Below, one piece after another: positions 27,581 through 34,028 of a stretch of DNA of 35,170 nucleotides. The first letter of the stretch is position 1. The number at the start of each line of letters is the position of its first letter. The notes below the pieces were generated by a model. That model did no database searches. It had not been told where the DNA came from and was given only the letters and a program-made list of their open reading frames with translations. The DNA is taken from NCBI GenBank assembly GCA_020434585.1, contig JAGRAN010000009.1:1-35170 (forward strand). The letters are read 5' to 3'. The position numbers and the translations under genes were made by a program. This DNA comes from Bdellovibrionales bacterium. Lineage in GTDB: Bacteria > Bdellovibrionota_C > UBA2361 > SZUA-149 > JAGRAN01.

Positions 27581-27835
27581 ATGACACTTGATGTGGTGGT
27601 ACAGACGATGAGCACAACGGCTGAGAACAACAACATAACGGTCGGTTCGGAAAGATTTGAAGAAGAGAAGCAGGAAGGCCGCGCTCCCAAGCGTGCGCGG
27701 AAAGCTACTCTGCTCAAGCTCCAGTGGCTAGCAGAGCGCCTGCGCAAAGTTGAGCGGATAAAGAAGGCGGTTGCCGACGGGACGTATCACGTCGACTCGG
27801 AAGACGTCGCCCGCGCAATGCTTAACTTGAAGTAA
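27581..27835 (+). CDS. FlgM-like anti-sigma factor (putative)
   Basis: The product has 84 residues from ATG 27581, or 75 from the in-frame ATG 27608, which has GGTGGT about 8 bases before it. The N-terminal half is polar and likely disordered. The C-terminal half (WLAERLRKVERIKKAVADG, then TYHVDSEDVARAMLNL) has the FlgM pattern: helix, RVEKIKxAIxxG, a YxVDxExxA turn and a final helix. FlgM binds and restrains sigma-28 until the flagellar hook is complete. No flagellar gene is in this window, so it is either an orphan flgM or a relative with another sigma partner. A strong terminator follows. Confidence 0.6.
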   Translation: MTLDVVVQTMSTTAENNNITVGSERFEEEKQEGRAPKRARKATLLKLQWLAERLRKVERIKKAVADGTYHVDSEDVARAMLNLK

Positions 27836-28390: not shown

Positions 28391-30004
28391 ATGTCGAAGA
28401 TTGCCTCCCACATAAACACATCTACAGCAGAGTTCCGCGCCAAGCACGAAGCCTACGCACAGGAGCTCGAAATGCTGGAGCAGCAGCTGCACCGCGCGGA
28501 GCATCCCGAGCGGCCTGACTCGATTGAACTAAGCCGCAGTCGAGGCAAACTACTCACCAGTGAACGAATCCGCGGACTAGTCGACCCGGGAACAAGCATT
28601 CTCCCAATTGCTCCTCTCGCAGGCTTAGGAATGTACGAAGGCGTAGAGCCCGGCGCCGGAATGACTGCATGTATTGGAAAGATTTGCGGTCGTCACTGCA
28701 TGATCGTAGCCAATAATCCAGCGGTCAAAGGCGGCACATATTTCCCAATGACCGTGAAGAAGCACCTGCGCGCGCAAGAAATCGCAATCGAAAACAGCCT
28801 ACCGTGCGTATACCTCGTGGACAGCGGTGGTGCGTTTCTGCCGATGCAGGCTGATGTTTTTCCCGACCGCTTTCATTTCGGCCGAATTTTCTACAACCAA
28901 GCATTAATGAGCAGCCGACGGATTCCGCAAATCTCCGTTGTGCTCGGCTCATGCACCGCCGGCGGTGCTTACGTCCCCGCAATGAGCGACGAAACGATTA
29001 TGGTTCGCGGCAACGCAACTATCTTTCTCGGTGGACCGCCGCTCGTTAAAGCCGCTACTGGCGAAATTGTCAGCGCAGAGGAGTTAGGCGGGGCCGAAGT
29101 ACACTGCAAGATCAGCGGCGTTAGCGATCATCTCGCAGAAGATGAGCAGCACGCTCTAATCCGTGCGAGGGAGATCGTGGCGTCATTAGGCCCGGAGCGC
29201 TGCACGTCTCGCCTTGAGCCCGATCAAACCAGCGAAGAACCCGATTACGATCCAAGTGAGCTGTATGGAATCCTCGGCACAGACTTAAGGAAGATGTTTC
29301 CTGTGCGTGAAGTTATTGCTCGCCTCGTTGACGGCTCACGTTTTGACGAATTCAAAGCCCAATACGCAGAAACAATAAAATGCGGCTTTGCCCACATCTG
29401 CGGCTACCGCGTCGGGATCGTCGCTAACGACGGCATTCTCTTCAGCGAGTCCGCACTCAAAGCTGCGCATTTCATCGAGCTATGCAGCCAGCGATCGGTG
29501 CCGCTGCTGTTTCTTCAGAACATCGCGGGCTTCATGGTCGGCAAGCAGTATGAAAACGAGGGAATTGCCAAACACGGCGCGAAGTTGGTAACCGCGGTAA
29601 GCACCGCCTGGGTTCCTAAATTAACCTTAATTATCGGCGGTTCTTTCGGCGCGGGAAACTATGGCATGTGCGGTCGCGCATACGAACCGCGTTTTCTCTA
29701 CACTTGGCCGAATTCAAGAATTTCTGTCATGGGCGGAGCGCAAGCCGCGAACGTCCTTACCGACGTTAAGTATGAGGCACTCAAACGCAAAGGCGTCGAC
29801 TACGCCGACGAAGAGAGAAACGCCTACCACCAAAAGATCACCGAGAAATACGAAACTGAAGGCTCTCCATATTTTGCCACCGCTCGGCTGTGGGACGACG
29901 GAATTATCGACCCTCTGAACACGCGACTCACTCTTGGGATGAGCCTTGCAGCCTGCGCGCATAACCCTGCTCAACACGGCCACTTTGGACTGTTTCGAAT
30001 GTGA
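28391..30004 (+). CDS. acyl-CoA carboxylase beta subunit, 3-methylcrotonyl-CoA type
   Basis: The product has 537 residues, the usual MccB/LiuB length. The carboxyltransferase fold shows the marks of the methylcrotonyl branch: [44 protein letters not shown] with the oxyanion-type Gly turns, [14 protein letters not shown], and [23 protein letters not shown] in the C-terminal half. It carboxylates the acyl-CoA with the biotin carried by the next subunit, most likely 3-methylcrotonyl-CoA in leucine breakdown. Geranyl-CoA carboxylase is an alternative. No Shine-Dalgarno sequence is clear. The biotin subunit starts 1 base after this stop. Confidence 0.9.
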
Positions 30005-30005
30005 T

Positions 30006-32045
30006 ATGAAAAAAGTACTTGTTGCAAACCGAGGCGAAATTGCTGTCCGCATTATGCGCACCGCGCGTAGTTTAGGCATTAAGACAGTTGCTGTTTATTC
30101 AGAGGCCGACGCGGGAATGCCTCACGCAGAGTTTGCTCATGAGGCCTATCCGATTGGCCCAGCACCCGCTTCCGAAAGCTATCTGAATCAAGAAAGGATC
30201 TTAGCTGCAGCCAAACAATGTGAGGCCGACTGTATTCATCCCGGTTACGGCTTCCTAGCCGAAAACCCAGAATTCGCAGAAGCGGTCGCCAAACAGGGAC
30301 TAACATTCATCGGACCAAGCGCTGCCGCAATGCGCAGTTTGGGCCACAAAGACAGTGCGCGCGCACTTGCAGAAAAAGCCGGTGTCCCCGTTGTCCCTGG
30401 CTTTCACAGCGATGATTCAACTGACGAAACACTGATCAATGCTGCAATGAAGATCGGCTTACCGGTACTGCTTAAGGCTCGAGCCGGCGGAGGCGGAAAA
30501 GGCATGCGCACTGTGCGCGAGGCAAAGGCGCTCAAGGAAGCGATCGCCGGGGCCCGGCGTGAAGGCAAAGCGTTCTTTTCCGATGACCGCCTCTTAGTTG
30601 AAAAGCTAATATCTCCCGCTCGACATATCGAGGTTCAGGTAATCGCCGATCTGCACGGCAATGTTAAAACAATTTTCGAGCGCGAATGTTCAATTCAACG
30701 CCGACACCAAAAAATAATTGAAGAAACACCCGCTCAGGGACTAAGCAGCGGCCTGCGTGCGAGAATTTATGAAGCCGCCGCCTCCCTGGCGAAGCAGGCC
30801 AAACTTTCAAGCGCAACTACAATGGAATTTATTTTACCGGTTGCGAGCAAGAATCCCGACGACCCGTTCTACTTCCTCGAAGCAAACTGCCGCATCCAGG
30901 TTGAACACCCAGTTACCGAGGCAACAACCGGACTGGACTTGGTGGAGCTGCAGTTTTTCGTTGCTGGCGGCGGAGACCTATCACAAATAGAATTCCCCGC
31001 GACACAAAGCGGTCACGCAATCGAAGCGCGTATTTACGCCGAACTACCGGGACGAGAGTTTCTACCGACTGTCGGCAAAATCGAAACTCTCTCCTTTCCA
31101 CAAGATCCGGAGATTCGAGTAGACCACGCTTTGGCACAAGGCATCTCCGTCACGACCAATTATGACCCGATGCTGGCTAAGCTGATAGTCCACTCCAGTG
31201 ACCGGCCGCACGCGCTGGCCAAAATGTTGGAGGCCTTAAACAAAACTAAGCTTGTCGGCGTCGAAACCAATATTCGATTTCTCGAACAGCTCTTTAAGGA
31301 CCCAAAAGCTTCTTCTGGCCTTGCTCATACAACCTATGTTGATGAAAACATTGCAGCCCTTACCGACTGCTATGACGACAGCCCGACGCTCGAAGCCGCT
31401 GCGTGTGCGTTTCTAGTCGTCCGCGTGAAGCGCTTCATGCAAATCAACAATGATATCTTTGTCCAGTCTGCCAAGGCTGGAGCACGTCTGAACGAACCGC
31501 TCGAACAGTTGGGAATCTACAGCGCAGCTACCTCAAGCAGCTATGTAGTCAGTGCCAGGGTCGTCGAGGCGCCGCGCGGCGGAACTGTTGTCGGCTGCTG
31601 GGAATTCGAAGTTGACGAGGACCGGATTCAAGCCCAAGTGAGCTCTTCACCCGATTCGGTCGAATTAATGCTGGCCATCAATAAGGCTGGTCCGCAAGCA
31701 ATTCACTTTCGAGTGGTTAATGACAACGTTCGCTCTCACACCAAAGTTGAACTGCTCGCATTCCAACAACACCTTGTCGTGGAACAGATTGTGGCAAAGA
31801 ACGCCGACTCCGGCGAGGACGCCGACAGCGCCCACGCGATAATCTCACCTCTCCCCGGCAAATTGATCAGTCTGAACGTAGAGGCGGGCGACACCGTTGC
31901 GGAAGGAGAAACTGTCTGCGTCATTGAGTCGATGAAAATGGAACACACCTTGTGCGCCGGTGCTGCTAGCACAGTTGCTGAGATTCTGGCAGAGCCGGGA
32001 GCAGCAGTTGAACAGGGTCAGGTCTTGGTGCGCTTAAGCGCTTAG
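30006..32045 (+). CDS. acyl-CoA carboxylase alpha subunit (biotin carboxylase plus BCCP), methylcrotonyl-CoA type
   Basis: The product has 679 residues from ATG 30006; a longer in-frame start lies inside the previous gene. Residues 1-450 are a biotin carboxylase: KVLVANRGEIAVRI, a GGGGKGM ATP-grasp loop, CSIQRRHQKIIEE and the carboxylation segment RIQVEHPVTE. The segment before it is EANC rather than the usual EMNT. A linker and BT-like region follow. The BCCP domain is C-terminal, with the biotinylation motif ESMKMEHT and Lys 644, 35 residues from the end, as is normal. It pairs with the upstream beta subunit. The last 12 bases overlap the tail of the convergent CitE-like gene. Confidence 0.9.
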   Translation: MKKVLVANRGEIAVRIMRTARSLGIKTVAVYSEADAGMPHAEFAHEAYPIGPAPASESYLNQERILAAAKQCEADCIHPGYGFLAENPEFAEAVAKQGLTFIGPSAAAMRSLGHKDSARALAEKAGVPVVPGFHSDDSTDETLINAAMKIGLPVLLKARAGGGGKGMRTVREAKALKEAIAGARREGKAFFSDDRLLVEKLISPARHIEVQVIADLHGNVKTIFERECSIQRRHQKIIEETPAQGLSSGLRARIYEAAASLAKQAKLSSATTMEFILPVASKNPDDPFYFLEANCRIQVEHPVTEATTGLDLVELQFFVAGGGDLSQIEFPATQSGHAIEARIYAELPGREFLPTVGKIETLSFPQDPEIRVDHALAQGISVTTNYDPMLAKLIVHSSDRPHALAKMLEALNKTKLVGVETNIRFLEQLFKDPKASSGLAHTTYVDENIAALTDCYDDSPTLEAAACAFLVVRVKRFMQINNDIFVQSAKAGARLNEPLEQLGIYSAATSSSYVVSARVVEAPRGGTVVGCWEFEVDEDRIQAQVSSSPDSVELMLAINKAGPQAIHFRVVNDNVRSHTKVELLAFQQHLVVEQIVAKNADSGEDADSAHAIISPLPGKLISLNVEAGDTVAEGETVCVIESMKMEHTLCAGAASTVAEILAEPGAAVEQGQVLVRLSA

Positions 32046-32837
32046 CTGAGACGCCGTGTCTGAGCTTGCGCCTTGACGACGCTCTGTGCGGATTTTACCA
32101 ACTCGTGGACGATACGGTCGATCGTAAACCTCGTGAATAACAGGAATTTGATTAGGATGGACAGAGAGCTTGCCGCAAAGGCCTAGTTCCTTGCCACACT
32201 CAACCTCAGCTCGAAACGCGGCCAGCTCATTCGGTCGATACATAAAGGACACTGAATCAACGATTGGAACGCCAGCGCTGTGGGCGCTCTTGATGCTCGC
32301 TTCCAACACTCTACGCAGAGGGCCGGACTCCCTAATGCTCGGTCGAACTATTCCCATATTCGAAGACAAATCTTCGTAGCCAACAACGTAAAGTGAAATA
32401 CAGTCCGCCGCATTAAGAATACTGTCTCGCCGATTATGCCCTCTTAGCGACTCAATTGAGATAAACAGCGATAATGGACGGCCACAGCGCGTTTCCGCCA
32501 TTTGAAGCTTGCCCGCCAGGAAGCGCATTTCTTCGTCGCTTTCTAATTTAGAGACGAACAAAGTGTCCGGGCAAAGCGAGAGGGCAAAGTCCAGATCGGT
32601 CTCAAAGGTATCGGCTCGCGGCGATGAAATTCTTACCACCACCTCTTTGCTAGGGCGTCTGGCGCGAATAAAATTACTCAGATTTTCACGTGAAGCAGTA
32701 TCCCGCGGACTGCAGACAGTGGTATTTATATCGAAAATGAAACCATCAGCGTCTATGTGGGGAATTTTGTCGGCGAAGCGTCCGAGGCTCGGGGCTGGGA
32801 TAAAATGTAAGCTGCGTGGGGCGCCTAAGCAATCCAT
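32034..32837 (-). CDS. CitE-like (HpcH/HpaI superfamily) acyl-CoA lyase homologue with altered active-site motif
   Basis: The product has 267 residues from ATG 32837 (residue 1 of MDCLGAPRS). It matches the CitE/malyl-CoA-lyase group: RSLHFIPAPS near the start, VVRISS, a metal-binding Glu in FISIESLRG and Asp in GYEDLSSNMGI, and the closing GKLSVHPNQIPVI, diagnostic of the family. The usual DLEDAV strand, which places acidic residues in the active site, is here FDINTTVCSP. Family members cleave CoA thioesters such as citramalyl- or malyl-CoA; this one's reaction is unknown and may be changed. It sits convergently on the methylcrotonyl-CoA carboxylase operon, overlapping it by 12 bases, so a role in the same catabolic path is possible. 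The ribosome site is weak. Confidence 0.75.
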   Translation of the reverse strand: MDCLGAPRSLHFIPAPSLGRFADKIPHIDADGFIFDINTTVCSPRDTASRENLSNFIRARRPSKEVVVRISSPRADTFETDLDFALSLCPDTLFVSKLESDEEMRFLAGKLQMAETRCGRPLSLFISIESLRGHNRRDSILNAADCISLYVVGYEDLSSNMGIVRPSIRESGPLRRVLEASIKSAHSAGVPIVDSVSFMYRPNELAAFRAEVECGKELGLCGKLSVHPNQIPVIHEVYDRPYRPRVGKIRTERRQGASSDTASQLSA

Positions 32838-33080
32838 AACCAAAAAACTGCCACTTTCTCCAAAGCTTGCTCTCTTCCACTACCAATCATGATGCGCTGC
32901 ACTCAACATGGTTTTCGCAAAAAGGCGATCTTGTAACTCAAACAATCTCTAAACGATCGACAAACAATGCTCAGTAAAAGCAAGTATATCCGTATGGTTT
33001 TAACAATTGAAATCCCGCACCTCGTTAACAGGTGGAGCTAAACTTGAATTGAAATGAAAGGTATTCGCGTGTCCGACCGG

Positions 33081-33461
33081 CTAAAAGCGCCACATCGAAA
33101 ACATGAACGCAAAACCGAGCGTCCGAAACAGGTACGCAGCCATGGCTAGCTTGATGTGAATGAGTTTGGTTCTAGCGCACGGACCGCGCAGCACCATTTT
33201 CCATCCAAGCCATAGCACCGGAAAATAAAGCAGCAGTGCTATCAACGACATAAGGATATGAATCTGAGGAAGCACCGCCAGAGAAAAACTTGCAGCAGTT
33301 TGAACGGCGCCTCGACTCACCTGCAATTGAAGAACAAGCGCTACATCCAAGAGAATTGCGGAATTAGCTAGAGCGATGTGTATCATGCGGCGAGTGCGCA
33401 GCACGTACGCGGCGCTGAAAAGCAGCCAGGCAACCGTCGCGATCATCATATGTGTAGTCAT
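33081..33461 (-). CDS. four-helix membrane protein, possibly DUF420-like
   Basis: The product has 126 residues from an ATG with AAGGAG about 12 bases upstream. Four hydrophobic helices are seen at about 5-22, 28-47, 57-87 and 104-124. His residues lie at helix ends (RRMIHIALA, PQIHILMSL and KLIHIKLAMAAYLFR), an arrangement that could bind haem or copper. The pattern vaguely recalls DUF420 (CtaM-like) assembly proteins, but no defining motif is present and the assignment is weak. It lies alone, 237 bases from the CitE-like gene, divergent from the lipoprotein gene at 33606. Confidence 0.6.
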   Translation of the reverse strand: MTTHMMIATVAWLLFSAAYVLRTRRMIHIALANSAILLDVALVLQLQVSRGAVQTAASFSLAVLPQIHILMSLIALLLYFPVLWLGWKMVLRGPCARTKLIHIKLAMAAYLFRTLGFAFMFSMWRF

Positions 33462-33605: not shown

Positions 33606-34028
33606 ATGAAGCAATCCGTAGCCGCGGTAAATATCGTTGCGCTCTTGCTGCTGCTATGGATGTGCGCCTGCAGCGAAGACAGCGGACCGCCCGGGCACCT
33701 GCTAATTCGAAACGATATTCAAGACAAACAATATAATGAATTCGTGATAGACAGCGTAGAGGTAAAAGGCGCTAGAAGCGGTTTCCGCAGAATGCTTGCA
33801 CCCGGAGAAAAGGTTGTCTTGCCCCAGCGCGCAGTGACCAGATTGCGTTTTACGCGAAAATACAAAGACTACTCCCTCGTCTACATAGTGAGCTGCCCTA
33901 AGGATTTGACGCAGGCTGTCACAATCAAACTCATTGACGTGCACACCGGACGCCTGCAAGGCGGCTGCTCGCTCGTACGCAAAGGAAAAAAAGTCCAGGG
34001 CCTGACTAGGTGGAGCGGCGAAGAGTGA
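33606..34028 (+). CDS. small lipoprotein of unknown function
   Basis: The product has 140 residues from ATG 33606, with AAAGGA about 9 bases upstream. The first 22 residues are a lipoprotein signal with a leucine-rich core (VALLLLLWMCAC) and the likely lipidated Cys at 22; residue -1 is Ala. The mature part is beta-rich and basic (LLIRNDIQDKQYNEFVID, LVRKGKKVQG), with LPQRAVTRLRFTRKYKDY in the middle and an internal Cys pair. I do not recognise a family. It is followed after 72 bases by the CBS-domain gene and might share transcription, although a separate promoter for that gene is visible. Confidence 0.65.
   Translation: MKQSVAAVNIVALLLLLWMCACSEDSGPPGHLLIRNDIQDKQYNEFVIDSVEVKGARSGFRRMLAPGEKVVLPQRAVTRLRFTRKYKDYSLVYIVSCPKDLTQAVTIKLIDVHTGRLQGGCSLVRKGKKVQGLTRWSGEE

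Follow-up and report, generated by a model that had tools for sequence, protein, structure and literature searches.

Background

Two described CitE-like enzymes serve as points of comparison. In malyl-coenzyme A (CoA) lyase (MCLR), according to PMC3832036, Glu141 and Asp168 are the Mg ligands, and Glu44 and Asp45 hydrogen-bond two Mg waters and are absolutely conserved across the CitE-like superfamily and the malate synthases; in the C-terminal lid, Asp299 is presumed to be catalytic and most of the other residues contact the CoA pantetheine. Rv2498c of M. tuberculosis is a lyase of (R)-3-hydroxy-3-methylglutaryl-CoA (HMG-CoA) and (S)-citramalyl-CoA that is needed for growth on leucine (PMC6689899), and it sits in the mycobacterial citE-scoA operon with accA1-accD1, a methylcrotonyl-CoA carboxylase (MCC), where its gene is co-directional (PMC4347857). 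The present analysis concerns a CitE-like gene that adjoins MCC genes in a Bdellovibrionales bacterium, within positions 1 to 35,170 of contig JAGRAN010000009.1; this whole stretch of 35,170 nucleotides (nt) is referred to as the window. The gene had been singled out in an earlier, preliminary description of this DNA.

The reading that we favour, with some reserve, is that the gene codes for a CitE-like barrel, derived but functional, which has kept the half-site for Mg and an oxo acid and lost the CoA-lyase machinery, and to which the MCC genes are incidental neighbours.

Active site, lid and predicted fold

The CitE-like protein scores 61.8 bits against PF03328 (cut-off 25) and thus belongs to this family, of which it is the sole match in its genome. 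Its open reading frame (ORF) runs from an ATG at 32837 to a TAA at 32034-32036. The scores against TIGR01588 (citE; 56.2 bits) and NF038242 (the RipC itaconate lyase; 55.4 bits) are below the equivalog cut-offs of 443.4 and 375, respectively. The AlphaFold model shows a confident barrel (mean predicted local distance difference test, pLDDT, 86.0; predicted template modelling score, pTM, 0.85), with residues 247-267 at pLDDT <50. Its best fold matches in the PDB are malyl-CoA lyase 4l9y, RipC 3qll, the CitE-like protein 1sgj and the Rv2498c structures; the top one, the R. sphaeroides malyl-CoA lyase 4l9y, has a template modelling score (TM-score) of 0.77 by query length.

Residue numbers of 4l9y are given after removal of an apparent 21-residue chain offset and were counted by hand; by such a count, Asp299 is chain position 320. 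The preliminary description was right that the metal-binding Glu and Asp segments are kept, E129 and D156 falling on the 4l9y ligands, and that DLEDAV has become DINTTV, which occupies residues 36-41. The ED pair is lost and the first Asp of the motif is kept. This residue, D36, is the partner of the catalytic Arg69, whereas N38 and T39 align on Glu44 and Asp45 of 4l9y in a profile alignment. Among the features of the catalytic CitE-like superfamily, the Mg-binding Glu/Asp and the Arg/Asp residues are therefore present, and the Glu/Asp pair that holds the waters is absent. In the class II pyruvate aldolases of the HpaI type, the catalytic His presumably lies within the segment that matches the LED motif; Thr39 may then stand at the position of this His.

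A second loss, which the preliminary description did not mention, is that of the C-terminal lid. In the CitE-like relatives the lid follows the barrel and has an [MLV][IV]D or E segment; the window protein stops a short way past the final helix of its barrel. A lid profile run over the six frames of 31600-32400 found nothing (best score 1.8 bits), while four controls, two of which belonged to the profile itself, scored 53.6-105.1 bits. A frameshift or sequencing error concealing the lid was rejected on this six-frame search. The protein also has no counterpart of the catalytic Asp or Glu that the lid carries in the catalytic superfamily.

The same two differences recur in comparisons with individual structures. 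The Mg-binding Glu/Asp and the Arg are common to 4l9y and the window protein, but Glu44/Asp45 and the lid residue Asp299 of 4l9y are unmatched. Yersinia RipC (3qll, NF038242) and D. radiodurans 1sgj, which are among the best PDB sequence matches, have both kept the LED motif and the C-terminal [MLV][IV]D segment, unlike the window protein. The coordinates of the gene, of its diagnostic residues and of the adjacent features are collected in Table 1.

Table 1. Positions in the window of the CitE-like gene, its residues and its neighbours
Feature	Position	Strand	Basis
CitE-like (PF03328, HpcH/HpaI) TIM-barrel protein, 267 residues	32034..32837 (stop included)	-	ORF, Pfam match, fold model
DINTTV, residues 36-41, replacing DLEDAV	32715..32732	-	sequence and alignments; DINTSV in G001
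Arg69, counterpart of MCLR Arg76, kept	32631..32633	-	4l9y alignment
Glu129, Mg ligand, counterpart of MCLR Glu141, kept	32451..32453	-	4l9y alignment
Asp156, Mg ligand, counterpart of MCLR Asp168, kept	32370..32372	-	4l9y alignment
C-terminal tail past the final helix of the barrel (residue 241 or so onward), lid site in relatives; mostly disordered (predicted)	32034..32117	-	AlphaFold, lid search
Strongly conserved 5' leader or promoter stretch of the CitE-like gene, 120 nt	32838..32957	-	G001 comparison
MCC beta, carboxyltransferase subunit	28391..30004	+	similarity
MCC alpha, biotin carboxylase/carrier subunit; its 3' end and the CitE-like gene share 12 nt	30006..32045	+	similarity

Rarity of the changes and relationships

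The changes were placed in a survey in which 120 loci were scanned and 103 frames matched, of which 91 were non-redundant and 90 full-length ones were kept (the fragment L012:3748-4926 was dropped). The set, picked for its similarity to a profile of three rows, is a non-random sample, in which the window and G001, the sole other genome of the genus compared, are counted. Of the 90 frames, 87 have an unaltered ED pair. At position 38, 87 frames have E, two have N and one has G; at position 39, 88 have D and two have T. The N/T rows are those of the window and G001 only, the G001 copy reading DINTSV. Arg69 is R in all 90, while Glu129 is E and Asp156 is D in 89 each. Sequencing error or chance is an unlikely cause of the motif change, considering the parallel change in G001.

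The third exception to the ED pair, L150 (G147:C96), is a separate degenerate CitE-like paralogue that is changed at both Mg ligands; its active site reads DLGDAV, with IDT for IE[ST] and EH for [EA]D.

The lid is missing only from the window and G001 (row L003) among the 90 frames. A loose text pattern matched 74 of the rows, and the remaining 16 tails were judged by eye: 13 have an acid-bearing segment, L149 is lid-like without an acid, and the window and L003 are lidless.

With the two motif columns removed, a tree of the 90 rows groups the window and G001 together at a Shimodaira-Hasegawa-like approximate likelihood ratio (SH-aLRT) support of 99% and then joins G011 to them at 98%; long branches around these three make the deeper placement unsure. 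The protein has a match at E ≤ 0.001 in three of the 45 genomes of the phylum. The G011 protein (L004/L084), from the same order, is the nearest relative outside the genus and is 32% identical to the window protein, with which it has in common a two-residue insertion and a Pro replacing the usual RT. In contrast to the window protein, it has kept LED and has a C-terminal extension with GRIE. On these sequence comparisons, the lid-less, non-canonical CitE-like protein is known so far from one genus.

Adjoining the G011 gene is a 434-residue protein without a Pfam family (L084:4515-5819), whose own family occurs at eight places in the genome of the window (G000) and at seven in G001, and was found in six of the 45 phylum genomes.

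Selective maintenance

The CitE-like proteins of the window and G001 are 80% identical over 255 aligned codons, and the differences at the first, second and third codon positions number 44, 28 and 156, so that 156 of 228 fall in the third position. Because the identity is of this order and the changes are concentrated in third positions, the gene is, by codon comparison, under strong purifying selection and not decaying. Synonymous sites are saturated between the two genomes, and a ratio of nonsynonymous to synonymous rates is therefore not given. Other proteins compared between them are 76.3% (phosphoglycerate kinase, PGK), 74.5% (MCC alpha) and 89.2% (MCC beta) identical.

The leader of the gene is approximately 80% identical to that in G001, versus 69% for the CitE-like coding sequence, and its sequence is present in two of the 45 phylum genomes. 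Rfam gave a sole match to the leader of 9.3 bits (E 4.6), and hence no known RNA family; when the leader of each species was folded as RNA, the two folds showed no obvious agreement.

A CitE-like gene in decay, of which only a remnant is left, is a very improbable reading and already largely refuted. The losses in the active site and the lid, and the occurrence of the degenerate paralogue L150 in another genome, would fit such a history. However, the ORF of 267 codons is intact, the interspecies identity is high with its differences mostly in third positions, the 5' leader is conserved, and the genome has no other PF03328 gene to substitute. The pseudogene reading was rejected on the codon-position differences.

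The neighbouring carboxylase and the leucine pathway

The neighbour is a methylcrotonyl-CoA carboxylase, as the preliminary description had it, both by similarity and by an MCC-type segment. MCC beta scores 674-689 bits versus MCC, AccD1 and a chain that was deposited under the name propionyl-CoA carboxylase; its score versus geranyl-CoA carboxylase is 459. It contains a 12-residue segment matching an MCC-type stretch described in PMC4347857. The best match of MCC alpha is a chain named mitochondrial MCC alpha. The CitE-like gene had been described as lying over the carboxylase operon. The adjacency holds, but membership in the operon does not: the CitE-like gene lies on the minus strand and MCC alpha on the plus strand, their 3' ends meet, and since the genes are convergent they form no operon.

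Linkage, whose absence the preliminary description had named as evidence against its proposal, is indeed not conserved beyond the genus, be it in the order-mates, in G011 or in the flanks of the relatives. Five members of the order have an MCC beta at 66-69% identity without the CitE-like protein (G003, G007, G010, and G012 and G013, whose MCC beta is partial), and the stretches around the MCC in G003, G007 and G010 hold no ORF matching it. In G011, the holder of the nearest relative, the carboxylase is only 33% identical, and no MCC was found on the 7.8-kb contig that carries the G011 CitE-like gene. In the flanks of 13 loci bearing relatives and of L084, no MCC was found, while the positive controls L082, L086 and L088 matched; L010 (G001) and L011/L084 (both G011) come from short contigs, and that of L010 ends at the CitE gene, so that the lack of MCC at L010 is uninformative. 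The MCC genes are thus probably incidental convergent neighbours and not pathway partners.

Two possibilities had been offered in the preliminary description: an acyl-CoA lyase whose substrate derives from leucine, or some other reaction. The first would make the protein a leucine-pathway beta-hydroxyacyl-CoA lyase acting like Rv2498c on (R)-HMG-CoA, with Asn/Thr and another residue substituting for the lost acids. The precedent of Rv2498c in an MCC operon is real (PMC6689899, PMC4347857). Rv2498c (6aq4, 6as5) and the window protein have in common the PF03328 barrel, the Mg Glu/Asp, the Arg and nearby MCC genes, and structures of Rv2498c stand among the best matches to the predicted fold. We nevertheless consider such a lyase decidedly unlikely. 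The window gene is convergent with the MCC genes, where that of Rv2498c is co-directional with them. A lid-spanning profile matches Rv2498c nearly to its end, whereas the window protein is without the lid, its catalytic Asp and the ED pair, and its TIGR01588 and NF038242 scores are far under the cut-offs. Both genus members have a canonical HMG-CoA lyase that passes the NF004283 cut-off of 246 bits (256 in G000, at G000:C33, the ORF in L167; 247.4 in G001), and therefore the HMG-CoA lyase step is already filled. Together with the five MCC-bearing order-mates that are without the protein, and the nearest relative that is without this MCC, these observations weaken the leucine-pathway suggestion and leave the alternative, a different reaction or none, better supported.

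Interpretation and significance

The favoured explanation is that of a derived but functional barrel. Glu129, Asp156, Arg69 and Asp36, which correspond to the half-site for Mg and a 2-oxo acid in malyl-CoA lyases, are retained. The Glu/Asp pair that holds two Mg-bound waters has been lost, and so has the lid, which in relatives covers the CoA pantetheine and contributes the catalytic Asp. Judging from the residues that are left, the usual cleavage of CoA esters is probably impaired, and efficient cleavage of beta-hydroxyacyl-CoA may not be possible. A small oxo or hydroxy acid is suggested as the ligand because the half-site is kept; having no CoA part, it might be bound or turned over, or the protein may have a binding or regulatory role. 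Tentatively, it may further be proposed that a lid-less clade with a neutral Asn/Thr second shell has moved off CoA chemistry to an as yet undescribed Mg-dependent reaction on, or the sensing of, a small oxo acid, and evolved in one genus from a lidded, LED-type ancestor.

Several points weigh against a functional barrel of this kind. A protein without the second-shell acids and the lid may still have lyase activity, and the loss of CoA contacts was judged from the lid alone. The G001 copy runs off its contig, so that absence of the lid is established in one species only. The adjacency to MCC is probably kept in both genus members: in G001 the junction between these genes is not assembled through, and two contigs, one with MCC and one with CitE, stop there. 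Finally, between the window and G001 the catalytic face shows no significant excess of conservation over the rest of the protein (66/77 versus 133/169 identical, p = 0.22), which gives no proof of a working active site.

The lack of a significant difference, and the strong overall conservation in spite of two lost catalytic elements, would also suit a pseudoenzyme, in which the CitE-like barrel would serve as a non-catalytic, regulatory scaffold for a metabolite or a protein partner. Such a role is rather doubtful in our estimation, because the Mg ligands, Arg69 and Asp36, which a pure scaffold does not need, are kept in both species, and the changes in the catalytic face are mostly conservative.

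In either case, residues called absolutely conserved in CitE-like enzymes and malate synthases (PMC3832036) are replaced in a gene maintained by selection. If the protein is active, it shows what the barrel is capable of without the water-positioning acids and the lid; if inactive, it is a clear-cut example of a CitE-like pseudoenzyme. Open papers, searched narrowly by keyword, gave no description of a CitE-like family with lost catalytic parts or of CitE pseudoenzymes, and nothing useful on CLYBL D320A. The case calls for caution against annotating this gene as a citrate lyase, or against reading a leucine-pathway lyase into it because of the genes next to it.

Other conserved stretches

In the intergenic region between pgk and the MCC beta gene, a 100-nt stretch (~27588-27687) is 90% identical to G001 and is the top-ranking segment of that alignment; no tRNA and no Rfam match at the gathering score were found in it. 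Two small ORFs without Pfam families, 33081-33461 and 33606-34028, are 68% and 62% identical in G001, respectively.
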